From Lignipirellula cremea (GTDB lineage Bacteria > Planctomycetota > Planctomycetia > Pirellulales > Pirellulaceae): 64,000 bases of DNA. The notes under the pieces were generated by a model. That model did no database searches, was not told where the DNA came from, and saw only the letters and a list, made by a program, of their open reading frames with translations. Below, in pieces: positions 1-54,000 of this stretch; the stretch's first letter is position 1, and the number at the start of each line of letters is the position of its first letter. The position numbers and the translations under genes were made by a program. The stretch is from contig NZ_CP036433.1 in the NCBI RefSeq assembly GCF_007751035.1, positions 5,995,001 through 6,059,000 of the forward strand, written 5' to 3'.

Positions 1-3000
1 CGCCAATTGCGTAGCCATCGTCGCAGCGAGAGATCGCAACCCAATGGCGGAAACGCTGGCGACCTGCACGCCGTTATCGGCTCCGCCGGAGACGACCACG
101 CCGCCGTCGGGCGTCATCGCGACTCCCTGCACGGCAGCCGTGTGGGACGTCCATCGCTCCAGCTCCGCACCGCTGGCCGTGTCCCACAGACGCACGATCT
201 TGTCATCGCCAGCCGCGACCAGGCGTGCTGCATCCGCGCTCAAGGCGACGCTGCGCAGCGGCCCGCCGTGATCATAAACGGCCGTCGGCTGCAGGGTGGC
301 CGCAGCCGCCGGCAATGCGGCCGGCAGCACCCAGCGGAATGCCTTTCCTTCTTCCCCGCCGGCGACAACCTGGGCCGGCGAGTCGGCGCTGCCGATGCTC
401 ACCGCCACGTCGTGCAGCGCCCCGGTCGGTCCGGCGAACGTCAGCGGGACAGGCTCGCCCGTCTCCCTTCGCCATAGTCGCACCGTCTTGTCGGCGCTGG
501 CAGAGAGCAACAAGGCGCCATCGCCAGTGAAGGCGACCGCGGTCGCTGCGTCCGTATGTCCGGCCAGCAGACGGACCAGGTTCAAGGGACGAATGGCGCC
601 CTGGTTCGCTTCGCCATAGAGCAGCTGCTCTCCCGCCGCGCCAAAGGCAATCGTCGCCATCGGCCCGGTAGTGGGAGCCGTTTCCAGCAACCCGTGCGTG
701 GTCGGATCGTAAACGCGTCCGCCAGCGGTGGTCGCCGCCGCCAGTTTGCTGCCGGCCCCGTTATAAGCCACCCGATGAACGGGCGACCCCGTTTCGATCA
801 CGACCGGCGCTGGCAACGCCGCCGGTGCGGCAGGCGCCGTCGCCGGCAGGCTGGTCAGATCGCCAAACAGCACTTTCCCCGTTGCATCGGCCCCGGCCCA
901 CTGCAGACCGTCGGGGCGAAGAGCCGCATCCACCAGCCCTTTCACGAGCAGCGGCGCCGCGAGACGTTCGCCATTCGCGTTCCAGAACGACATCGTCCCG
1001 GTGCTGTCGAGCGTCGCCAGACGCTGGCCGTCCGCGCTGGCGGCCAGCTGCAGGACGCCCGTTTCCGCGGCCGCCACGACGCGCTCCACCTGCAGGGGTA
1101 CCGCATACGTCAACTTGTCGGCGCCGCCTGCGACGATGCGATCTTCTCCAGCGAACGCAACCGACAGCAGCGGCATGGCTCCCAGCGTGACCCGCTGCAG
1201 CTCGCGACCGGCAGGCAGATCCAGCACGCGCAATTGGGCGTCGTCGCTCGTCGCGGCCAGGCGTGCGCCTCCGGGACTGAATGCGAGACTGCGGACGGGG
1301 GCGTCGAACGGATAACTGGCGATCTGGGCTCCGTCGGCCAGGTTCCACAACCGCACCGTTTTATCGTTGCTGGCCGAGGCCGCCGTCTTCCCGGTCGGGT
1401 CGATGGCGATCGCCGTCGCGGCGTCTGTATGGCCCGCCAGGGAACGCGGTTGACCGCCGGCTGCCAGCGGCCAGATGCGTAAGGTTTTGTCGGCGCCGGC
1501 CGTCAACAGCAACGCGCCGTCGGGCGAAAAGGCAATCGCGTTCACGGCGCCGTCGTGCCCGGCAAACGCCTGCACCAAAGCCGAGTCAGCCGCACGCAGC
1601 GAGTTATCCGCGGCGCCAATTAGCAGCCGCGGCGGTAGGTTCGCCGCCGTCGCGCCGAACCCTGCTCCTACGGGAGCCGGTTCCGCCAGCGGCAGAAAAT
1701 CTTCGAGCAGGCCGGACGTACTCCACAACCGCACGCCGTCGGTCGAACTGCTGACGAGCCGACCGCCCTCCGCGCTGAACGTGAGCGAGGCGATCGGACC
1801 CGCATGCCCTGTCAACTCGCCGGCGGCGGCGCCGCCGACCGCTTTCCAGAGTTTGATCGTCTTCCCCGCTCCGCCAACGGCCACCAGCTGGGCGTCGGGC
1901 GAAGCGGCGACCGATGTCACCGCGGCTCCTTGCGCGAGCGTACCAATGGCGGCGCCGGTTGACAGCTTCCAGGTGCGGGCCGTGCTGTCGGCCGCTCCTG
2001 AAACCAGCAGGTCGCCCACCGCGCACATCGCCGTCAGGGCGCCGGTGTGACCGGCCAGCGTGCGGACTTCGGCCCCGTCGGCGACGGCCCATTGTTTGAT
2101 TGCGTTGTCGGCGCCCCCGCTGAACAGCTGCTGTCCATCGGGGCTGAGCGCGACTGCGGCGACGGCCGCGCCGTGGCTCACCCTCTGGATCTCGGGAAAC
2201 TTCGGGTCCGCCAGATCCCACACCCGGGCGGTCTGGTCGGCCGAACCGGTCGCCAGTCGCAAGCCGTTCTCACTAAAGGCGAGCCCCAGTACGGCGCCGT
2301 CATGGCCGAACAGTTGCTGGATCACCTGGCCGGTCGTCGTGTTGCGAATCACGACGGCCGGTCGATTATTCACGACCGCTGCAGCCGCGGAGAATTTGCC
2401 GTCGCGGCTGACCGTCATCCGGGTCGATGTTGCATCGCCTGCGTAGACTTGCGATGGTTGCGGGATTGACCAGACACGCACCACGCCATCCGCACTGGCG
2501 GTCGCCAGGCGGTCGCCTGTCGCATTAAACGCCGCACCCAGTACAGGGCCCGCATGCCCTGCCAGGGCAGGCGGCGGGACGGAATCCGCGGCGGCAGGCG
2601 GAGCGGCCGGATCCACGAATCGGACCACTCCTTCGGCGTCGCCAATCGCGGCCAGTGTCTTGTCGCGACGCAGGGCGAGCGACGTGACGGGCCCATTCCC
2701 GGCCGCCAGAACAACCGGCGCCGCCTCGGCCTGCAGGTCAAACAGGCGGACTGATTTGTCGGCCGATCCAACAAGAGCAAACGAACCATCAGCCGCGGTG
2801 ACGACGGCCGTGATTTCTCCCGTCGTCGCGGGCCAGGTCGTCGGCGACTGCAGCGGCAGACGCCACCACTTGAGGCTGCCGTCCGCCCCGGTCGAAATGA
2901 GCCGATCCCCGGTCGGAGTAAACGTGAGCCCGGTCAGACCGCCGACATGGGCGAGGGCCGAGCCGAGCGATCCCTTGCCGGCGACATCCCACAGCTGCAG

Positions 3001-5124
3001 TTCGCCCTGATCATCGCCGCTGGCGAGTATCTCCATCGCCTTGGCTTCTCCCGCAGCCGGCAGCATACCCGCGGCCAACGCGGCGACCGCGCCCTGATGC
3101 ACGGCGCCGGTTCCGGCAGCCGTCCCGTCGGCGTGGTTCCATAACCTTACGCCCTTGTCAGCGGAGCCAGTGGCGACCAGCTCGCCTGAGGTCGTGGCGA
3201 CAACTTCTGACACCGGGGCCGTATGTCCCGCCAGCATCGTGGGCGCGACGGGCAATCGCCACAGCCGCACCGACTGGTCCGCGCCGGCGGAGGCCAGCAG
3301 GTCGCCTTGCGGGCTCATCGCCAGCCCCAGCACCGGACCCGTGTGGCCCCGCAGCTGCAGCCGGTCGGCGCCGTCGGCCGCGTTCCACAACTGGATCACC
3401 CCGTCGACCGAACCACTGGCCGCAAGCGTCGCATCGGCAGACAGAGCGAGCGAGGAAACGGCTTCTCCCTGGCCCGCCAGCGTACGCAGGGCGGCGCCGG
3501 TGGCTCCGTTGAACAGCCGCACAGTTTTGTCTTCGCCGCCGCTAAGGACGACCGCACCGTCGGCCGATACGGCCACATCGGCGACCGGCGACGTATGGCC
3601 CGCCAGGGTGCGCGGAGCGACCGCCGGCAGTCGCCAAACTTTGATCGTACCGTCGGCCCCCGCCGTCGCCAAACGATCACCGGCCGGATGAAACGCCGCG
3701 CTGTTCGCCGCGGTGGGATGGGCTCCCCAGACCGCCTGCTCCACGCCGTCGGCCGGGTTCCAGAGGCGCAGCACGCCGCTGTCGTCGGTCGTGGCGAACT
3801 GCGTGCTGTCGGCTTTGAAGGCGGTCGATGTCACCGGCGAGGCATGTCCCGCCAGGGTGCGCAGCGCCGCGCCGGTGGAGGGCGTCCATAACCGCACGCT
3901 ATGATCGGCCGAGGCCGTGGCGCCATAAGTACCGTTGGGGCTGACCGCGGTCGACAGGACGGCCGCCGTGTGGCCCGCCAACGGTAACCGGGGCTGCGGC
4001 AGACTCCACAAGCGAATCACGCCATCGTCCGACGCCGTGGCGATCCGCTGGTTGTCGGGATGAAAGGCCGTCGCCAGCACGGATCCCACATGGGCTTCCA
4101 GCTGCGCTCGATCGGCGCCGTCGTTGATGGCCCAGAACTTCACACGGCCCTGCTCGTCGCCCGCCGCCGCCAGCAAGCTGTCGCCGCTGAGCGCAAGACT
4201 CAAAGAGTTGCCCACGTCGGTCGCCAGTTCACGGGCCAGCGCCCCGGTCGCCACGGTATACACCCGGGCGTGACCATTGCCGGCCGTGACCAGCAGTTGC
4301 CCATTGGCCGTGACTTCCGCACAGCGGACCGGGCCTGGCGCTTCAGGGAGGACACGGGGATCGACCAGCGGCAACTGCCAGGTTTTCAGCAGGCCGTCGG
4401 CGCCAGCGGTGATCAGTTGCTGGTTGCTGGGATGGTACGCGACGCCCACGACCGCCCCGCGATGTGCATCGATCCGGCCGCGTTGGGCGTTATCAAAGGC
4501 GCGCCAGAACAGCAACCGCCCCGCGGCGTCGGCCGTGACGAACTGCTGGTTATCGCCGCGGAAAGCGGCGCCCGTCAAAGCAGCGTCATGCCCCTGCAGC
4601 GATTCCAGCAAGGCGCCGTCCGCCAGGTTCAACAGATGGGGGAGCCGATCTTCGCCGACGACGAGCACCTTTTCGCCCAGGGGATCAATCGCCAATTGGA
4701 CCAGCGGTCCCGGACTGGCGACAGCGGAATAGAAAGGTTCCGCCTGGGGGATGTCCCACAGCCGCAGCGTGTTGTCGGCCGAGCCGGAAACCAGCTGACG
4801 GCCGGCGGGATCGGTCGCCAGCGTAAGCACCTGGGCCGTATGGCCGCGGAGCGTGCGTAACTCGTCGCCGGTCGCCGCGTTCCTGATTTTGATCGTCTGG
4901 TCGGCGCTACCGCTTAGCAGGTAGCGTCCGTCGGGCGAGTAGATCACCGCATTGACGCCGGCCCCATGTCCGGGCAACCGCTGTTCCTGGGCGACTACCG
5001 ACGCCGGTCCTCCGGGGAACGACAGCAACAATCCCAGCAGGAGAGAAAGCCGCCATGCAGCCGAGACGGCTGCGAGCGAAAGTTCAAAACGGTTCCGGCC
5101 AGCAAAGCAATTCCCATCCGTCAT
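1..5124 (-). CDS. Giant secreted WD40-repeat protein (3' end outside window)
   Basis: The frame is open from an ATG at 5124 down to base 1 (at least 1,708 residues) and has no stop inside the window. Residues about 25-46 form a hydrophobic signal segment ending in a VVAQ-like cleavage region (SLLLGLLLSFPGG). WD40 repeats start at once (e.g. SPDGRYLLSGSADQTIKI) and recur about every 42 residues to the window edge, with typical SPDG, SGSADKT and LWD blades; I estimate around 40 repeats so far. WD40 proteins form beta-propeller scaffolds, and the signal peptide puts this one outside the cytoplasm. Planctomycetes often fuse such arrays to a cytochrome or kinase domain; any such domain would lie beyond base 1. 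The gene follows the sigma factor gene on the same strand, separated by a terminator-like hairpin. The repeat family is certain; the function is unknown. Confidence 0.88.
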   Translation of the reverse strand, partial: MTDGNCFAGRNRFELSLAAVSAAWRLSLLLGLLLSFPGGPASVVAQEQRLPGHGAGVNAVIYSPDGRYLLSGSADQTIKIRNAATGDELRTLRGHTAQVLTLATDPAGRQLVSGSADNTLRLWDIPQAEPFYSAVASPGPLVQLAIDPLGEKVLVVGEDRLPHLLNLADGALLESLQGHDAALTGAAFRGDNQQFVTADAAGRLLFWRAFDNAQRGRIDAHRGAVVGVAYHPSNQQLITAGADGLLKTWQLPLVDPRVLPEAPGPVRCAEVTANGQLLVTAGNGHARVYTVATGALARELATDVGNSLSLALSGDSLLAAAGDEQGRVKFWAINDGADRAQLEAHVGSVLATAFHPDNQRIATASDDGVIRLWSLPQPRLPLAGHTAAVLSTAVSPNGTYGATASADHSVRLWTPSTGAALRTLAGHASPVTSTAFKADSTQFATTDDSGVLRLWNPADGVEQAVWGAHPTAANSAAFHPAGDRLATAGADGTIKVWRLPAVAPRTLAGHTSPVADVAVSADGAVVLSGGEDKTVRLFNGATGAALRTLAGQGEAVSSLALSADATLAASGSVDGVIQLWNAADGADRLQLRGHTGPVLGLAMSPQGDLLASAGADQSVRLWRLPVAPTMLAGHTAPVSEVVATTSGELVATGSADKGVRLWNHADGTAAGTGAVHQGAVAALAAGMLPAAGEAKAMEILASGDDQGELQLWDVAGKGSLGSALAHVGGLTGLTFTPTGDRLISTGADGSLKWWRLPLQSPTTWPATTGEITAVVTAADGSFALVGSADKSVRLFDLQAEAAPVVLAAGNGPVTSLALRRDKTLAAIGDAEGVVRFVDPAAPPAAADSVPPPALAGHAGPVLGAAFNATGDRLATASADGVVRVWSIPQPSQVYAGDATSTRMTVSRDGKFSAAAAVVNNRPAVVIRNTTTGQVIQQLFGHDGAVLGLAFSENGLRLATGSADQTARVWDLADPKFPEIQRVSHGAAVAAVALSPDGQQLFSGGADNAIKQWAVADGAEVRTLAGHTGALTAMCAVGDLLVSGAADSTARTWKLSTGAAIGTLAQGAAVTSVAASPDAQLVAVGGAGKTIKLWKAVGGAAAGELTGHAGPIASLTFSAEGGRLVSSSTDGVRLWSTSGLLEDFLPLAEPAPVGAGFGATAANLPPRLLIGAADNSLRAADSALVQAFAGHDGAVNAIAFSPDGALLLTAGADKTLRIWPLAAGGQPRSLAGHTDAATAIAIDPTGKTAASASNDKTVRLWNLADGAQIASYPFDAPVRSLAFSPGGARLAATSDDAQLRVLDLPAGRELQRVTLGAMPLLSVAFAGEDRIVAGGADKLTYAVPLQVERVVAAAETGVLQLAASADGQRLATLDSTGTMSFWNANGERLAAPLLVKGLVDAALRPDGLQWAGADATGKVLFGDLTSLPATAPAAPAALPAPVVIETGSPVHRVAYNGAGSKLAAATTAGGRVYDPTTHGLLETAPTTGPMATIAFGAAGEQLLYGEANQGAIRPLNLVRLLAGHTDAATAVAFTGDGALLLSASADKTVRLWRRETGEPVPLTFAGPTGALHDVAVSIGSADSPAQVVAGGEEGKAFRWVLPAALPAAAATLQPTAVYDHGGPLRSVALSADAARLVAAGDDKIVRLWDTASGAELERWTSHTAAVQGVAMTPDGGVVVSGGADNGVQVASVSAIGLRSLAATMATQLA

Positions 5125-5242
5125 CGTGTCAGCCTCTGCAAGAAGGTATTTCATTCGCATCAATCTAAACTGATGAATGCGGGAATACAATCAAATACTG
5201 AGGAGAGACGTCTGCTTTGCACGTGCGATGACGCAAAATTAA

Positions 5243-5305: not shown

Positions 5306-7141
5306 TTACTGGCCGTCACGCAGGCCGCTCGGAGCGCGTTCGCCGTCACGCAGGCCGCTCGGAGCGCGTTCGCCGTCACGCAGGCCGGTGGGAGCGCGTC
5401 CGCCGTCGCCCTGGCCGCGGGCGGGGCCTTCGGTGGCGTTGAACCTGCCCTGGGTGTACCAGTAGAGGAATTCTTCGACCGTCATTTTGCCATCGTTGTT
5501 GGGGTCGGCTTCTTGGAAGCGACCCGTTTCCAGCTTGATGCGAGCCGTGTCCGTCGCGGAGACCCGTTTCATGCGGAGCCACTCGTCGGCCGTGACGGTC
5601 AGGTCGCCGTTTTGGTCGTACGCCTTGAAGACGCCGCCTTCTTTCGTCCGCTGCCAGTTGGCCGGAGCGACGCCGGCGGATTCGGTGGCGTTGCGGGGCT
5701 CGCCGTCGGCGCGGCCTTGCGGGTTGCCCTGCACTTCGCGGCGGAGGGTTGTCACCTCCTGCTGGAGCTGCAGGATCATCTGGAAGAGGGCCGCTTCTCG
5801 CGGAGACTGGGGACGAAAACCGCCCAGTCCTTCGCCCGCCTGTACGTTCCGCTCGCCTTCAACCGAACGGCGCGGGCCAGCATCACCTTCCGCCGAACGG
5901 CGCGGGCCAGCATCACCTTCCGCCGAACGGCGCGGGCCAGCGTCGCCTTCCGCCGAACGACGCGGGCCAGCATCACCTTCCGCCGAACGGCGCGGGCCAG
6001 CGTCGCCTTCCGCCGAACGGCGCGGGCCAGCGTCGCCTTCCGCCGAACGGCGCGGGCCAGCGTCGCCTTCCGCCGAACGACGCGGGCCAGCGTCGCCTTC
6101 CGCCGAACGACGAGGACCGGCATCGCCTTCGGCCGAACGGCGAGGACCAGCGTCGCCTTCCGCCGAGCGGCGCGGGGCGCCTTCTTCCTCGCCGAAGGCA
6201 ATGAATTGCGTGCCGCGGGCGACAGGCTGGCTGACCAGCTGGATCGGGGCGTCCAGGGCGTTGGCAGCGCCCGCAAAGGCGGGAGCCGGCAGCCACTGGG
6301 CGGAAGTGGTCAGGGCGGCGACGCAGCAGAAGCTGCCGACGAGAATCTTGGCCGAGGTGAGCGACATGAATTCGATGCTCCGATGAGTGAGAGAAAGAGT
6401 CTGGGCGGAAACCTGGCCCGCCAGGCTTTGACCGGCGGCGACACGCACGCCCGCTTGAACGGTGGCGGCCAGCAAGCTGGGGGAAATGCTCGAGGCCGCA
6501 GCGGCCGTCGACGAACTGCGAACGATCAGTGAGAGCACCACCGCCAGGGAGACGCCGCGGAGCAGTAACTTGCGCCGCAGCAACTGCCGTCCCCGCTCCA
6601 GCCGCCCCTTCAAGGCGCCAATCGACCAGCCCAACTGCTCGGCCGCTTCGTCGCGGGATTTCCCTTCCAGGCAACAGAGGAACAGCGGCAACCGGTATTT
6701 TTCCGGCAGGGCGTTCAGCTCCTGGTCGAGCACGGCCTGCTCGTGTTCCTGGGAAATCTGCGATAAAGAATCGGCGATCATAGGGTCCGTCTCAAGCGAC
6801 GTTTCAGGGCGACGCGAGCGTTTGGCTCGTGCTCGAAGGGCGATGCGAAAAGCCGTTTTGTAAAGCCAGGCGCCTAGCGAATTCTCCCGGCGAACGGAGC
6901 CGGCCTTGCGGGCCAGCACCAGAAACGTCGCCTGGAAGGCGTCTTCCGCGTCGTGCTCTTTTCCCAGCACCCGGCGGCAAACCGCCATGACCAGCGGGCC
7001 ATGACGTACGACCAGTTCCGCAAAGGCATTTTCCTCCTGGCGCTGGGCGAACCGGTCAAGCAGATCACGATCCGACGTCGCCGTCGGCGCAGGGCCGGCA
7101 ACGACAGAGGATTCAATGCGATCTTTGACAGACGGATTCAT
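5306..7141 (-). CDS. ECF-type RNA polymerase sigma factor with membrane segments, decapeptide repeats and EF-hand pair
   Basis: The start is the ATG at 7141, with AAGGTGAG just upstream; a longer open frame adds only 18 unconvincing residues. The protein has 611 residues. Residues about 25-105 are sigma region 2 ([27 protein letters not shown]) and about 135-190 are sigma region 4 ([29 protein letters not shown]). Hydrophobic segments follow at about 196-208 and 264-281. About 11 copies of [10 protein letters not shown] lie at 321-431, a short helical/coiled segment at about 445-470, and two EF-hands at about 508-519 ([12 protein letters not shown]) and 544-555 ([12 protein letters not shown]). 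The tail repeats [10 protein letters not shown]. Cytosolic sigma domains joined through a membrane segment to a calcium-binding exterior is an inference from this order. Planctomycetes are known for ECF factors with C-terminal extensions. The neighbouring WD40 gene could be a target. Confidence 0.85.
5315..5404 (-). repeat. Three 30-bp tandem repeats coding the sigma factor tail
   Basis: Three adjacent 30-bp units (starting GTCACGCAGGCC on the plus strand) code [10 protein letters not shown]-type decapeptides at the extreme C-terminus of the sigma factor. The unit length equals that of the larger internal array. Confidence 0.85.
5852..6180 (-). repeat. About eleven 30-bp tandem repeats coding [10 protein letters not shown] decapeptides
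   Basis: Units of 30 bp run head to tail with few substitutions, almost all conservative at protein level. They code a mixed-charge linker inside the sigma factor. There are no spacers, so this is a coding minisatellite and not a CRISPR. The near identity of units suggests recent expansion by slippage or unequal recombination. Confidence 0.9.
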
Positions 7142-7272
7142 GCAACGCTCACCTTCGTTCTTCCCAGATAGAGCCCGGCCGTTCTCCCACGGCACGGAGA
7201 ATTTTTAATTTAGACCAAAACGCTTGAAAAAGCGCGAAAAGACTTTGGGACGACGCCGGTATCGATCAAAAA

Positions 7273-7366: not shown

Positions 7367-10204
7367 CTAGCCATCGCTACGGCCAAAGACGGAGTGGAAT
7401 CCGCCGCTGCTGCGCAGGTCATTGGCGTTGTAAATGTACTGCGCGTCGAGCGCCTTGCTGACCACCGAGGCCGCTTCTTCCAGATGGGCCCGCGTGTAAG
7501 GATCGAGCTTGTCGCCCGAGTCTTTCAGCGATTTCTGGATGCGTGCGCCCAGGCGTCGCAGTTCGGCGACCGACAGGGTCGAAATGGGCTTGTAGGCCGC
7601 CTGTGAACCGGCGCCTGGCATGGCCAGGTCGATCAGTCGTTTCAGGTGTTCCCGCTGCAGGTTCCGTCGCAGGCTGGAGGTCATCGGAGCACGAGCGGTG
7701 TACTTGTGATCCAGTTTCTGATCCAGCTCCGACCAGATTTCCTTGCTCACGCGGTCGAGCAGTTCCGGCAGGGTCAACGCGTCTTCGTCGGCCGGGGTGC
7801 GGAACTCGTTGTCGTACACCCGCTGCAGGGTCGTCGGTTTCAGGATCATCGTCAGCGTCGAGGACTGCACCCCCATGATGCTGTCATGCACCGGGTAGGT
7901 GGAATCCTTGATGGCGTTGCTGAACTCGTCCAGCCATTTGTCGTTCGTCATCCAGCGGAGCAGTTCCGGCGTCAGGCCGAATGCTTCGTCGTGGAAGGAG
8001 TTCTTCATGACGAATTCCAGCGCCGCCCGCTGCTTGGCGTAATCGACCACTTCCAGCGGAGCGCGGCCGTTGGTATCACCCTTTTTATCGCGATACACAT
8101 GCACGCCGCCGACCCAGTTGGCCATCATACTTAGAGCACGAACCTGCAGAGCCAGCGTCAGGCCGTAACCGCGGCGAACGCGGGACCAGCTTTCGCCGTC
8201 TTTGACAAACCCCTTCAGCAGGCGGCCGCGGTGATGTTCGGCCAGGTCGACCTGCTCCTTGGCGTAAGCCAGCGGATCGGAGCCAAAATCATAACGGCGA
8301 GCCAGCGGGTCAGGGCCGTAAGCGTCTTCATCGGTGGCGTACACCAGATTGGGATCGGCGACGCGATCGAGAATCGGCTTGAGATCGGTTTCCGACGTGT
8401 AGCCGTACTCGATCGCCCATTCGTCATAGGGGCCGATGCCGGTCATGGCGTAGTCGCCCTGCTCGGCGCCCGACTTGTAACGGATGTTGACCGGGGTGTA
8501 GTCCATGACGGAGCCGGCCAGCGGCTTCTTCCCTTTGACGGCGTCGCTGTTGATCTCTTCGACCGAGTAGATCGAGGAGGCCTTGAAGTTATGCCGCAGG
8601 CCCAGGGTATGGCCCACTTCGTGCGCGACCAGATGGGCCAGCAACGGGCCGATGAATTCTTCCGGCATGCCGTCGATCATGCTTTTCGGGTCTTCTTTGT
8701 CCTTCTCTTTTTCGTCCTTGGCGTCTTCTTTTTCGGCTTCTTCCTTATCCATGGCCAGCGTCATGGTCATGTGCATCAGGGCCATGTCGAAGGCTTTCCC
8801 TTGCGCGGCCAGGCACATGCCGTTGGTCTGGCTGGTGCGTCCCACCAGGCCGTCGAAGTCATGGCTGCCCATCAGTTTGGAGTCGGCCTGGGCGAACGGG
8901 TGCCCGGCGTACGGCTGGGCGGATTTCATCCGAATGCCGCTGCGCAGATGCTCCACCTGCGAAGGACTGGCCATGCGCAGCCGCGGGTCCCAGTCGGGAT
9001 GATCGGCCAGCCAGGCCAGCGTATCGGGGCCGTAACCTTCCATCGCCAGCTGCGGCATCAGGTCTTCAAACTGGAACCGATAGTGGCGAATCCAGCCGTC
9101 GGTCAGAATAATGTCGGCGTCCAGGATCTGGCCCGTTTTCGGGTTCACCCGGCTCGGCCCGATCGCCGTGCCCTGGTCATTGTTGAGCCAGCGGACGAAG
9201 TTAAAGCGGACGTCTTCCGGATCCTTGTCCATGTGCGCGCCGCTAGCGGCGTCCTGGTAGTGGACCTCGATGGCGTCGCTGATGCCGACCTTCTCAAACG
9301 CACGGTTCCAGGACAAAACGCCCTCGCGGACCCAGCGGCGGTAGCGGATCGGCGTCGTGTGTTCGATGTAGAACACCAGCGGTTCTTTGGGCGGGCTCAG
9401 TCGCAGTTTGGGATCGGCCTTCTGCAGATTCCAGCGATTGATGAACCGCACGCGGGTCTCGTGATCGGCATACTTGCCCAGGTCCGAAAAACTGGTGATG
9501 AAGTAACCAACGCGTTCATCCGCCAGACGCGGCTTGAAGGTCGGGTCTTCCGTGATCAGGCTGATCGAATAGTGCAGCGTGCGCAGCTTGCCGCTCGTAT
9601 CGGGCATTTCAAACGCCAGCTCCACGTTGCCCGGAAAGGCTTTCGCTTCGGCGATCGAATAGATCTGCGGCAGCGCCTTGTTGAACGCCGAGCTGCCGAA
9701 AAAGACGGTCGATTTCTGCACCAGCAGGTAATCCATGTCAATGATCGGGCCGCCGCCGGGTCCGATCGAAATGATCGGCAGGTCCAGCAACACTTGGCCA
9801 GTAAACAGGCGGTCGACCGAAGCTTTTGATTCGTTGTCGCCGCTGCTCCGGGTGTCCAGGTCCGGGGCGATCAGCGCCAGACGGTCGTCATATTTGCGCC
9901 AGTAAACGTACACGTCGCCTGACTGCAGGCCCGCATACTGGTCGCCGCCGGCCAGCGTCAGCGCGATAAAGTATTTCTGGGAGGCGAAGGTTTTGGGCAA
10001 CTCCGCCAGCATCTGGTTATCTTTTTTACGGACCCAGATGGTAAAGAGGCTTTTCTTGCCATCGACGGTCGAGACGACTTCTTCAAAGTCCTTCAACACG
10101 TCGGCGTGAGCCGGCAAAGCGGCCTGCGCTTGACGACCGACAAAAGCCGTCGCAAAAAGCAGGGCGAGGAAAACACAGCGCCGCAGCAGCGTACCAGCAA
10201 ACAT
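7367..10204 (-). CDS. Secreted zinc-dependent metalloprotease (DUF5117/DUF4953-like)
   Basis: The start is the ATG at 10204: GGAGG sits 7 bases upstream and a signal peptide begins there (MFAGTLLRRCVFLALLFATAF, cleavage near RQAQA-AL). The longer upstream frame lacks both. The mature protein of about 920 residues has the zinc motif HEVGHTLGLRH near residue 525, a HExxHxxGxxH metzincin-like site with three His ligands and a Glu base. An N-terminal beta-rich region precedes it (about 35-330), as in the DUF5117/5118 plus DUF4953 architecture. A Lys/Glu-rich stretch near 480-505 (EKEDAKDEKEKDKED) interrupts the domain just before the active site and looks like a surface loop. It probably degrades extracellular or periplasmic protein. 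It appears to be transcribed alone. Confidence 0.85.
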   Translation of the reverse strand: MFAGTLLRRCVFLALLFATAFVGRQAQAALPAHADVLKDFEEVVSTVDGKKSLFTIWVRKKDNQMLAELPKTFASQKYFIALTLAGGDQYAGLQSGDVYVYWRKYDDRLALIAPDLDTRSSGDNESKASVDRLFTGQVLLDLPIISIGPGGGPIIDMDYLLVQKSTVFFGSSAFNKALPQIYSIAEAKAFPGNVELAFEMPDTSGKLRTLHYSISLITEDPTFKPRLADERVGYFITSFSDLGKYADHETRVRFINRWNLQKADPKLRLSPPKEPLVFYIEHTTPIRYRRWVREGVLSWNRAFEKVGISDAIEVHYQDAASGAHMDKDPEDVRFNFVRWLNNDQGTAIGPSRVNPKTGQILDADIILTDGWIRHYRFQFEDLMPQLAMEGYGPDTLAWLADHPDWDPRLRMASPSQVEHLRSGIRMKSAQPYAGHPFAQADSKLMGSHDFDGLVGRTSQTNGMCLAAQGKAFDMALMHMTMTLAMDKEEAEKEDAKDEKEKDKEDPKSMIDGMPEEFIGPLLAHLVAHEVGHTLGLRHNFKASSIYSVEEINSDAVKGKKPLAGSVMDYTPVNIRYKSGAEQGDYAMTGIGPYDEWAIEYGYTSETDLKPILDRVADPNLVYATDEDAYGPDPLARRYDFGSDPLAYAKEQVDLAEHHRGRLLKGFVKDGESWSRVRRGYGLTLALQVRALSMMANWVGGVHVYRDKKGDTNGRAPLEVVDYAKQRAALEFVMKNSFHDEAFGLTPELLRWMTNDKWLDEFSNAIKDSTYPVHDSIMGVQSSTLTMILKPTTLQRVYDNEFRTPADEDALTLPELLDRVSKEIWSELDQKLDHKYTARAPMTSSLRRNLQREHLKRLIDLAMPGAGSQAAYKPISTLSVAELRRLGARIQKSLKDSGDKLDPYTRAHLEEAASVVSKALDAQYIYNANDLRSSGGFHSVFGRSDG

Positions 10205-10611
10205 GGGGCAACCTCCGATGGTCTGTCGCAAGGGGAACTCGAAGTATCCCTCGTTGAATGGCGCAGCATGAACCGAACACGACAGAGGGCTAGATACCCT
10301 ACATTGACGGACGGTCCGATGAGCGAAAAACGGGGCGGGATTCAAAAAGACAGGCGTGATTTGTGGCGAATGGTAGGGATTGGGATAAGTAAACAGCCGT
10401 CTCCATTGTTCGTGCCGTAGCCATCCGGTCAAGTTCAAAATTTTTCCAGACGACGCAGAGCCCCACCACCTGATCCCTTTTTAACGGAAGAATGCCTTCC
10501 ATAACATGCGGACTGGGGGATATCCGTCTCCCGGTGCGGACCGGCTCCCCGCGGTACGAGCAGCCAGGCTCAGGAGCGGCCGCCGCATGTCGGGGAGCCG
10601 CAGTGTCCCGT
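10205..10611 (+). other. Intergenic region, no gene seen
   Basis: This stretch separates the metalloprotease start from the SGNH hydrolase stop, both on the minus strand. The only structure I see is a 10-bp inverted repeat (CGGCTCCCCG at 10542 and CGGGGAGCCG at 10591) with a long, about 40-nt, loop and no T-run. The metalloprotease promoter should lie here; I could not assign it. Confidence 0.5.
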
Positions 10612-11454: not shown

Positions 11455-11473
11455 GGCTTCTCTCGCGGGGAAC

Positions 11474-11831
11474 ATCAAAGTCAGCAGCATCGTTTCCACG
11501 GGAAGCGTCACCAAGGTTGACTCCCCGCCCAATTGCATCGAACGCGCATCGTAGCATGGCCGATTGCTGGAGAAAACAGTCGGCGGCTCCTCGGTGGCAG
11601 GGACGCAATCGGGGGCCTGCACAGAACGACCAGGCAGGGACGTTCACGGCCCCAGCAAGTTCTCCTGAGTGACGTTGAGGCCGGGGCGCCCGATGCGAGA
11701 TCGAACAAGCGGAATCCAGAACGAACCCTCTGAGTAGCCGCTTCCCCCAGGCCGGAGGGAATCAAAGCGTGGTATCAAAACGCGATTTCTTCGCGTGGTA
11801 TCAAATCGCGATTTCTTCGCTTTGCGGAGAC
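11474..11831. repeat. Long direct repeat, copy A
   Basis: This region matches 13013-13370 with an offset of exactly 1,539 bases and about 96-97% identity by eye. Weaker similarity continues to about 11940. It contains a 26-bp tandem pair (GCGTGGTATCAAA... at 11767 and 11793). All frames are open in places but substitutions do not favour any of them, so I treat it as non-coding. It lies just upstream of the SGNH hydrolase gene and past the end of the HEAT-like gene. Confidence 0.9.
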
Positions 11832-12940: not shown

Positions 12941-13012
12941 TACCACCGGGAATCGGTTTTCCGTCGGATAACTCCGTGTCCTGCCCGCTGGCCCTTTTGA
13001 GTTGCGGGGGAA

Positions 13013-13370
13013 ATCAAAGTCGACAGAATCGTTTCCACGGGAAGCGTCACCAAGGTTGACTCCCCGCCCAATTGCATCGAACGCGCATCGTAGCATGGCC
13101 GATTGCTGGAGAAAACAGTCGGCGGCTCCTCGGTGGCAGGGACGCAATCGGCGGCCTGCACAGAACGACCAGGCAGGGACGTTCACGGCCCCAGCCAGTT
13201 CTCCTGAGTGACGTTGAGGCCGGGGCGCCCGATGCGAGATCGAACAAGCGGAATCCAGAATGAACCCTTTGAGTAACCTCTTCCCCCAGGCCGGAGGGAA
13301 TCAAAGCGTGGTATCAAATCGCAAATTCTTCGCGTGGTATCAAATCGCGATTTCTTCGCTTTGCGGAGAC
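13013..13370. repeat. Long direct repeat, copy B
   Basis: Same orientation and nearly the same sequence as 11474-11831. The visible differences are few, for example in the 13259-13285 stretch and the first 26-bp tandem unit (13306-13331). The two copies bracket the antitoxin, truncated toxin and HEAT-like genes. Confidence 0.9.
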
Positions 13371-51094: not shown

Positions 51095-54000
51095 ATGTCG
51101 AATCGTTCCCGATTCCCGATTTGGCCCTTTATTTGTATCGCCGCATGCCTTTTTGTGCTTTGCCTGATGGCGCCGCGAGTCTGGCGGGAATTCCAGCCCT
51201 CCGCGCAAGTTTCCGCAGAAACGGAGTACCAGGCGGACCCGATCATTGAACCGCTGCCGGCGGAAATGCCGTCCGACACCGCACGTTTCGTTTCGGCCTA
51301 TGCCGATGAGAACACCCATAATCCTTACGCCAGTCGCGGCGGTTCGATGCCGTCGTTTGCCATCGAGTCCTCGCCCAGGATAAAGTCGACCTCGCGGACC
51401 AATACGGCCAAACCCGCCAAGAAACCCTCTTCCCCGGTGCCCAGCTTTGGCCAGTTCTCTTCGAACGCCGCCACCGTGAGCGCCTCTGGCCCGTCGAGCG
51501 TCCCGGCGAAACCCACGGCGAAACCGTCCAGCGCGAAGCCCAGCTTCGGCCAGTTCTCTTCGAACCAGGCCACCGTGAGCGCCTCCGGCCCGTCGAGCGT
51601 CCCGGCGAAACCCACGGCGAAACGGTCCAGCGCGAAGCCCAGCTTCGGCCAGTTCTCTTCGAACCAGGCCACCGTGAGCGCCTCTGGCCCGGCGAGTGTT
51701 TCCGCGAAGCCCACGGCGAAACCGTCCAGCGCGACGCCCAGCTTCGGCCAGTTCTCTTCGAACCAGGCCACCGTGAGCGCCTCCGGCCCGGCGAGTGTTT
51801 CCGCGAAGCCCACGGCGAAACCGTCCAGCGCGACGCCCAGCTTTGGCCAGTTCTCTTCGAACCAGGCCACTGTGAGCGCCTCGGGACCGACGACCGTCCC
51901 GGTGGAACCGCCTGCACGGGAAGCGGCGCCGACGACCAGCGGCGGCCAGTTCTCGGCGAGTGTTGCGACCGTGAGCCCTGCAGCCCCGGAGCCCCCCCCG
52001 GTCGCACCCCGTGCGCCGGAAGCTGCGCCGACGACCAGCGGCGGCAGTTTCGCCGGAACGCCAGCGTCGAGTCCGCCGCTGCCGCCCGTCTCTCTGAACG
52101 AGCCGAGCGTGGCGTCCGCTCCGATTGCACCCGTGGCGGCTACGCCGAGTATTGCTGCCCCGAATGTTGCTGCCCCGAATGTTGCTACGCCGGGTCTTGC
52201 TGCTCCGAACCTCCCGGCTGCTGATACGAACGTCGCCGTGAAGCCGAGTCTGCCGACCGAGTCGAGCGTCGTGCTCGCTCCGCCGGCCGCCGTGGAGAGC
52301 TCGCCGGAGACTTCGCCTTCGGATGCGCTCGTCCTGCAGAGCGAGATCTCTGAATCCAACTTCGCAGAAATTGCGGCCGCCAACACGGCGCCGGAACCGC
52401 CGGGGGGCGCGATCGTTTCGAGCGAAATGGAAAAGGTCGCTGCCGAGCTGGTCCTGCCGACCATCGAGGCTCCCGCTTTGCCCGAAATTGAAGATGTGGC
52501 GATCAATTTTGCGCCACTGCCGGCTCCCGACCTGAGCTACGCGATCGACGGCTCGACGGCCGCTCCGCCGGCGACGGGCGGCGTGCCTCGACTTGCGGCT
52601 GCGGCCGCTGAAGATCGGACGTTGAGCCCTCGCCGCGCTGACCTGGATCTGCGTGCGGTGGTTGGCGCCCGACTGGGACCGCTGGCCTTGTCGCGACGTC
52701 AGTGCGAACCGGCGATGGAACCGGGCTTGAATGACACCGCTGCTCTGGGAGCGCTGGCCTTCGACGGCCGCGGCTCTCGCCTGGCCTGGCAACTGTCCGG
52801 ACTGTCCGGCGCCGTGGAAACGCCCGCGCTGAAAATGCCCGCGACCCCTTTGACGATGGAAGCGCTCGGCATTTGTCCGGCCGCCATACGTCCCCTGGTC
52901 GGCGCCCGCTATGCGGCGACCGAACCGCCGTCGCTGACGCCTGAGGTTGCTCCCATGCAGCCGGAAGTGGAAGGCTCCCAGGCGCCGTTGTCGCTGGCGA
53001 CGCCAGAGCGAAGTCAGCCGGCCGGCAGCACGCCGGGGCTGGAAGAAACGCCGTCGCTTTTGTCGGAACGGAAGCCCGAAGGTCAGCTCGACCGTAGCTC
53101 GCCCTGGCCGTACCCTCGCGCCCTGATCGATGCGGCCGCCAGACTGGAACAGCAGGAGCAGACCCGCGACCTGGGCCAGCGACTGCACCTGGAGCTGGAG
53201 AAACTGGCCGGTCTGCAGAGCTTCGACGACGACCATGCGTTTGGCATCGGTACGCGGTTGTACGCCATTTCGCAGGAAGCCTGGTCGCTGGCGGCTCGGG
53301 TTCCCGAGAACGCGATCAAAGTCGACCTGCAGCGTTTGTCGTACTCACTGGCCCGCCGCGTGGAAACCTGGCTGCAGGTGCATCGCATTGCGGCCCAGGG
53401 ATTCCAGGTTTCGCGTGTTTCGCTCGAACCTGAAGTCCTGAAACAACGGCTGGCCGATGTCGACCGTCAGATTGGACGCCTGAAACTGGCCGCTAGCTGG
53501 CGCCGGTATCTGCTGCTCGATGAACTCGACAAACTGGCCCTGGGCAGCGGCGTCGGCGTGGAGCCGGCTGACCTGGCCCGTTCCGTGATTTCGCGGATTG
53601 AAAGCTCCAAGCTGACACGGGAACAGGAAGAATTCTTCTCGCAGCCGGAGTTTGTCGCGCTCAAGTACGAGCTGTCGCGCTGGTCGATCGAACCGGTTGA
53701 TTACAGCGAGCTGCTGCGAACCCTGGAGGCATATGAAGACGATAACCTGACCGCTGACGCGCGTCCGCTGGCGGAGTCCATCATGTCGCTGCGATGGAGC
53801 AGCGGCGACGAGGTCAAAACGCTGGGCCAGCGGCTGGAAACCCGGTACCGGAACGCCAATGTTCGCGTCTCGGCGTCGGCCGAACTGCTCAATCGCTTCA
53901 TCCCCGATCCGCCCACTTCCACCGAGCCGGTATACGACGATATCCAGGGCGCCTATGTCCAGGGTCGCAGCCAGACCGAAGCGCAGATCCAAGTGCTGTG

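Follow-up and report, generated by a model that had tools for sequence, protein, structure and literature searches.

An ECF sigma factor of Lignipirellula cremea joined in one polypeptide to a likely membrane helix and a probably calcium-binding EF-hand pair

To our knowledge, little is understood of how bacteria translate calcium levels outside the cell into changes of transcription. The literature searched yielded a single circuit of an EF-hand protein and an ECF sigma factor, that of Caulobacter, in which a periplasmic EF-hand protein, CaBP, is linked to the ECF sigma factor SigV through a membrane component which, in the available part of the report, is as yet unnamed, so that the circuit lacks its membrane link (PMC13171946). 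Tethered sigma factors as such are already known. In Pseudomonas putida, IutY (ECF243) is a sigma/anti-sigma fusion which takes part in siderophore signalling and is activated by proteolysis involving Prc and RseP, and the actinobacterial groups ECF48, ECF52 and ECF53 carry a C-terminal extension with one or two transmembrane helices, with periplasmic domains in the case of SCO4117, as far as the accessible part of the source describes them (PMC8999054). The same part describes the planctomycete group ECF57, exemplified in Singulisphaera acidiphila, as having a C-terminal extension, cysteines in sigma2 and sigma4, and prevalent WD40-like repeats (PMC8999054).

In this study, we describe a gene of Lignipirellula cremea whose product combines an ECF sigma factor, a likely membrane helix and a pair of EF-hands in one chain. 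It lies in a stretch of 64,000 nucleotides of contig NZ_CP036433.1 (hereafter the window), in a genome of 9.57 Mb that consists of a single contig. The features of the gene and its product, in window coordinates, are as follows:

5306..7141, minus strand: whole gene, encoding a 611-aa protein with sigma, transmembrane, repeat, coil and EF-hand parts (ORF from ATG, Pfam)
6809..7015 (residues 43-111), minus strand: sigma-70 region 2 (Pfam PF04542 Sigma70_r2, E 2.7e-12)
6578..6730 (residues 138-188), minus strand: sigma-70 region 4 (Pfam PF08281 Sigma70_r4_2, E 6.5e-11)
6512..6568 (residues 192-210), minus strand: hydrophobic segment 1, probably not a full crossing (19-mer KD 1.75)
6368..6511 (residues 211-258), minus strand: conserved inter-segment region (family alignment)
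6311..6367 (residues 259-277), minus strand: hydrophobic segment 2, the likely single membrane helix (19-mer KD 1.68)
5849..6178 (residues 322-431), minus strand: eleven PRRSAEGDA-type repeats (pattern [GA]PRRS[AV]EG; similar repeats in relatives)
5729..5803 (residues 447-471), minus strand: coiled-coil-like helix (conserved in alignments A1 and A4; helix 16-40 of the AlphaFold model)
5582..5617 (residues 509-520), minus strand: EF-hand loop 1, EF1 (sequence reading)
5471..5506 (residues 546-557), minus strand: EF-hand loop 2, EF2
5312..5418, minus strand: C-terminal tail repeats of the 10-aa type (30-bp tandem array; RDGE-like tails in several relatives)

If translation began at an alternative GTG codon at 7195, the protein would be 18 aa longer. 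Both sigma-70 families match above their cut-offs, TIGR02937 (sigma70-ECF) scores 78.8 bits against a cut-off of 42.9, and no region 3 family is among the eight Pfam matches of the protein at E <= 1, as befits an ECF sigma factor; moreover, Foldseek with the model of residues 1-320 and a PDB sequence search match the sigma part to ECF sigma factors. The repeat units are 10 aa each and nine of the eleven are identical. In the DNA they form an array of 30 bp in 10.8 copies with 91% matches, and a second 30-bp array of 3.6 copies lies at the 3' end of the gene. A match of the repeats to eIF3a in the PDB search was discarded as low-complexity. The coiled coil was read from the sequence, whereas its helix comes from AlphaFold. 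As for the C-terminal pair, Pfam places EF-hand_1 at residues 542-561 (E 2.3e-7), above cut-off, and the EF-hand_7 pair at 504-563 (E 9.7e-7), with 29.5 bits just below the cut-off of 30. The pair comprises two helix-loop-helix units whose loops carry ligands at positions 1, 3, 5 and 12, and both loops are as the original prediction had written them. Position 6 of an EF-hand loop is usually G; in EF1 it is L. The AlphaFold model of the module shows two helix-loop-helix units in a block with pLDDT 81-88, and the best Foldseek matches of the EF model are EF-hand proteins, none of them at E <= 0.001. The module is probably calcium-binding, as judged from its sequence. The order of parts first proposed for this polypeptide (regions 2 and 4 of sigma, then a pair of hydrophobic segments, eleven repeats and the EF pair) is confirmed by Pfam, KD and the repeat pattern.

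Like IutY, as described in the accessible part of the source, the protein joins an ECF sigma factor and a membrane-crossing C-terminal extension in one polypeptide (PMC8999054). However, the extension of IutY is an anti-sigma factor, whereas the outside part here would consist of repeats, coil and EF-hands, and no FecR-like anti-sigma part was matched (Pfam, E <= 1). The ECF48/52/53 proteins share the extension with transmembrane helices, but in that source they are described with a zinc-finger anti-sigma-like domain and have other outside domains (PMC8999054); no zinc-finger anti-sigma-like domain is among the Pfam matches of our protein at E <= 1. With ECF57 it shares a planctomycete host, the extension and the cysteines, namely C55 in sigma2 and C156/C157 in sigma4, but not the WD40-like repeats, for which Pfam gave no match at E <= 1. 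The Caulobacter circuit is alike in tying an EF-hand protein to an ECF sigma factor; it differs, as far as the available text goes, in being encoded by two separate genes, whereas EF-hands, membrane helix and sigma factor here form one chain (PMC13171946). We found no description of the sigma-TM-EF architecture in the open literature on EF-hand/ECF pairs, tethered sigma factors, BlaR1 and planctomycete sigma factors, taken at the level of titles and abstract openings, and an earlier description is possible.

The architecture is not confined to one genome. Orthologues with the same domain order, for which a search had originally been proposed, carry the sigma-EF fusion in three more genomes of the same family (L065, L066, L069), which makes chance or misassembly very unlikely as its origin; we rejected both. 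In a wider search with the whole protein at E <= 1e-30, scoring five candidates per genome, 52 of 246 genomes of the order matched (own included), with at least 70 matches, the window included. Thirty of these loci were analysed (the window and L009-L037). In the 29 relatives the likeness spans the sigma part and the segment 2 region, and the C-termini differ. When the C-terminal parts were scanned one by one, eight relatives showed an extracytoplasmic-type domain above the Pfam cut-off: peptidoglycan-binding in L014, L019, L029, L033 and L036, polysaccharide export in L017, DUF1559 in L034 and PEP-CTERM in L037. Seven have C-terminal matches below cut-off only, and five of these are of extracytoplasmic type, namely STN with or without FecR_C in four (L018, L020, L021, L035) and peptidoglycan-binding in one (L032); the others are HEAT (L013) and thioredoxin-like with AIP3 (L031). 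A weak FecR_C match, below cut-off, occurs in 3 of the 29. The remaining 14 gave no Pfam match at E 0.01 in the C-terminus. Except for HEAT and thioredoxin-like, the domains named usually belong to the periplasm or the cell surface, so that the C-terminus of this family is most likely outside, although half the family is uninformative on this point.

It had been supposed that both hydrophobic segments are true membrane helices and that the EF-hands are outside. If both segments truly crossed, the EF-hands would return to the cytoplasm; an outside position needs an odd number of crossings. We compared 34 sequences, that is, the window protein, the 29 relatives, the three EF fusions and the sigma protein of L060. 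A KD of at least 1.6 was reached by segment 2 in 32 of 34 members, by segment 1 in 5 and by a control in the sigma part in none (the best 19-mer in the sigma part of the window protein has KD 0.96), and the family thus points to segment 2 as the single crossing, against the premise of two helices. Over all members the flanks of segment 2 hold 48 K+R on the N side versus 27 on the C side; taken singly, 20 members have more on the N side, 6 more on the C side and 8 equal numbers. Only one 17-mer passes KD 1.5 in L065 and L066, and two are over this value in L069. In the window protein itself the best 17-mers reach KD 2.09 (segment 1) and 1.82 (segment 2); the two segments are equally hydrophobic, which makes a hairpin with the EF-hands inside possible for this protein. 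In the AlphaFold model of residues 1-320, segment 1 is an 8-residue helix in a stretch with pLDDT below 50 and a helix at 246-281 spans segment 2 in a low-confidence part; residues 196-238 and 254-320 are under pLDDT 50, so we took the sigma parts of this model as usable and its linker as not usable. C55 of sigma2 is kept in all 34 members, and cysteines in both sigma2 and sigma4 in 20, the window protein included. An A-x-A/S motif, signal-peptidase-like, follows segment 1 in 28 of the 34 members (residues 201-218, window 6488-6541), in a stretch rich in Ala.

The part behind the repeats is also found in other settings. A search with residues 432-611 found the module at E <= 1e-4 in 27 of the 241 family genomes, the host genome among them, giving 30 matches with the window included; a profile of the module gave matches at E <= 1e-6 in 19 of the 396 genomes of the order, again counting the host, although a number of these are generic EF-hand or coil matches, and a scan of genome contigs gave eight loci, three of them new. 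The set used below comprises 22 module proteins, namely the window protein, 18 of the 29 other query matches and the three new loci; outside this count are L075 (G389, a frame with stops) and ten further matches, and the region L061 held the sigma gene of G113 only. L096 (sulfatase-like by reading) and the short proteins of L097, L099 and L100 were dropped as generic EF-hand proteins of different architecture. Among the profile-search loci, neither an EF nor a coil ORF could be read in L090 and L098, and L091 held a coil ORF only. The window's own genome gave no second copy of the module, the further matches being at E 0.41 and 0.93 only.

Among the 22 proteins, the repeat/coil/EF module stands behind a sigma-TM part in four (the window, L065, L066, L069), behind a BlaR1-type M56 peptidase in four (L067, L073, L104, L107) and free in fourteen. 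BlaR1 carries a beta-lactam sensor domain, and this C-terminal sensor lies outside. In all four M56 fusions the module follows the last hydrophobic segment and replaces that sensor domain, and at two of them, L107 and L067, a Penicillinase_R (BlaI-type) gene adjoins the M56 gene; the family was absent in the ORFs scanned beside L073 and L104. The likeness to BlaR1/MecR1-BlaI lies in this common module, whereas the transducer differs from that of the sigma fusion. DUF4838 genes adjoin two of the four M56-EF fusion genes (L104 6653-10258, L067 467-2416), and one of them also has a pectic acid lyase domain, a possible hint of calcium-gelled polysaccharides. In all fourteen free proteins a hydrophobic, signal-like 17-mer precedes the module, and no hydrophobic 17-mer follows it; in six the stretch starts more than 25 residues into the listed ORF, and their true start is therefore unsure. 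A sigma query, which covered 13 of the 14 free-gene loci (L108 was left out), placed the free gene just upstream of a related ECF gene on the same strand at three of the 13: G117 (L060), where the ECF protein has a membrane segment of KD 2.04 and a weak STN match, G395 (L078) and G384 (L076), where the ECF frame is interrupted. No common neighbour gene across the settings was seen by eye in 15 loci.

These comparisons bear on the original placement of the EF-hands outside a tethered sigma factor. The free copies, the M56-fused copies and the extracytoplasmic-type domains of the relatives speak for the placement, whereas the two helices once invoked with it would put the pair inside; a single crossing by segment 2 with the module outside is the arrangement that the comparison supports. 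The use that the relatives make of the module suggests an interchangeable sensor. A tree of the module (107 columns) mixes M56 and free forms. It needs four changes for the M56 label, at least two of them forced by well-supported branches, and this label is no better clustered than shuffled ones; a single origin of the M56 fusions is not supported by the tree. The sigma label needs two changes where one is possible, and L073 and L077 are long branches.

EF1 keeps its positions 1, 3, 5, 8 and 12 in all 22 module proteins, while the other loop positions vary. The pattern used to locate the loop prescribes positions 1, 3, 5 and 8 and leaves 12 free (none of the 22 failed it); independently of this count, all 13 rows of alignment A1 and all 9 of A4 agree throughout the ligand columns. 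EF2, located by its final E, has the full ligand set in 8 of the 22 proteins and in three of the four sigma fusions, and an incomplete one in 14. Since the search for these 22 proteins relied on similarity to a query with EF-hands, EF-less forms are under-sampled in these counts. Four close sigma-TM homologues (L009-L012, family f13; the frame of L011 runs off its contig) lack the EF pair, while repeats, coil and an RDGE-like tail are present. Conservation of the EF-hands among orthologues, on which the original proposal was made to depend, thus holds for EF1 in the module proteins and fails in these four: EF1 looks selected where present, yet the architecture as a whole can do without EF-hands.

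We favour, with moderate confidence, a signalling sigma factor that spans the membrane in one piece and carries an exchangeable sensor outside the cytoplasm, one that probably binds calcium. The N-terminal ECF sigma factor (regions 2 and 4) would lie in the cytoplasm, anchored by one membrane helix, segment 2 (residues ~259-277), and the repeats, coil and EF-hand pair would lie outside the cytoplasmic membrane as a swappable sensor module, which relatives appear to place behind a BlaR1-type protease or to make as a separate protein. Calcium, or a calcium-bridged envelope polymer, might change the coil/EF module and so expose the juxtamembrane part to proteolysis, at site 1 and then by a protease of RseP/M50 type, as for IutY; the freed sigma domain would then join RNA polymerase. 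Segment 1 and the inter-segment stretch may hold the sigma domain inactive until cleavage, residues 211-258 being possibly inhibitory in cis. Both calcium control and proteolytic release of the sigma factor are steps that we infer. M50 proteases are present in the host genome, but also in 14 of 14 control genomes, and are permissive only for proteolytic release. In the available part of a Tuwongella proteome study, several ECF sigma factors are found in detergent fractions; two SigA paralogues are found in one of these too, so that this is no proof of tethering (PMC8567305).

It is possible, although we consider it rather unlikely, that the sigma factor is tethered as proposed while the EF-hands are structural or hold the protein to, for instance, anionic polymers of the envelope, with the signal passing through the repeats and coil or mechanically and calcium acting as a fold stabiliser. 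Such a role would agree with the four homologues that keep repeats, coil and tail without EF-hands, with the frequently incomplete EF2 and with the peptidoglycan-binding C-terminal domains of some relatives; the retention of the EF1 ligands in every module protein across three settings, amid otherwise variable loop positions, argues against it. A constitutive cut in the linker, for which signal peptidase is one candidate, would make one gene yield two products, a sigma part and a secreted EF-hand protein; this seems improbable to us. The A-x-A/S motif after segment 1 and the free versions of the module, three of them just upstream of an ECF gene, are in keeping with such a cut, but A-x-A is frequent by expectation in Ala-rich sequence, and segment 2 would be left without a clear role.

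Very improbable, in our estimate, is a protein in which both segments cross and the EF-hands read intracellular calcium in the cytoplasm. The KD of segment 1 in the window protein would suit this arrangement, as would its strongly positive N flank, except that the flank borders sigma region 4 and is therefore uninformative. Segment 1 falls under KD 1.6 in 29 of the 34 members, however, and where the module is free or fused to M56 it seems to lie outside the cytoplasm.

With a sigma factor, a membrane helix and EF-hands in one chain, and the module also on a BlaR1-type transducer, the question of how calcium reaches transcription becomes directly testable. The one-piece transmembrane sigma factor that we favour suggests that some planctomycete ECF sigma factors may sense the envelope in cis and need no separate anti-sigma factor. 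It is conceivable, at somewhat less than even chances, that one-piece transmembrane sigma factors with exchangeable extracytoplasmic sensors form a general class in Planctomycetes, and that the EF module is a portable envelope calcium sensor on three outputs: a tethered sigma factor, a protease-repressor system of BlaR1-BlaI type, and a tethered sigma factor whose partner it is as a free, secreted protein.

Several other features were observed in the window. Directly downstream of the gene and on the same strand is an ORF of 2451 aa (window 1-5190, minus strand, which is L080 7835-15190, minus strand, and runs off the left edge of the window), with a signal-peptide-like start and, by reading, WD-repeat-like units. 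Directly upstream, also on the same strand, an ORF of 1023 aa (window 7367-10438, minus strand) has Met-zincin DUF4953 and DUF5117 domains. A direct repeat of 300 bp (window 11465-11764 and 13004-13303, 96% identical, spacing 1539) is followed by one of 80 bp (85%) with the same spacing of 1539, and two ORFs, of 336 and 98 aa, have their 5' parts within the duplicated stretch. Finally, a 99-bp tandem repeat at window 51439-51909 has 4.8 copies with 92% matches and is open in the one minus-strand frame translated.
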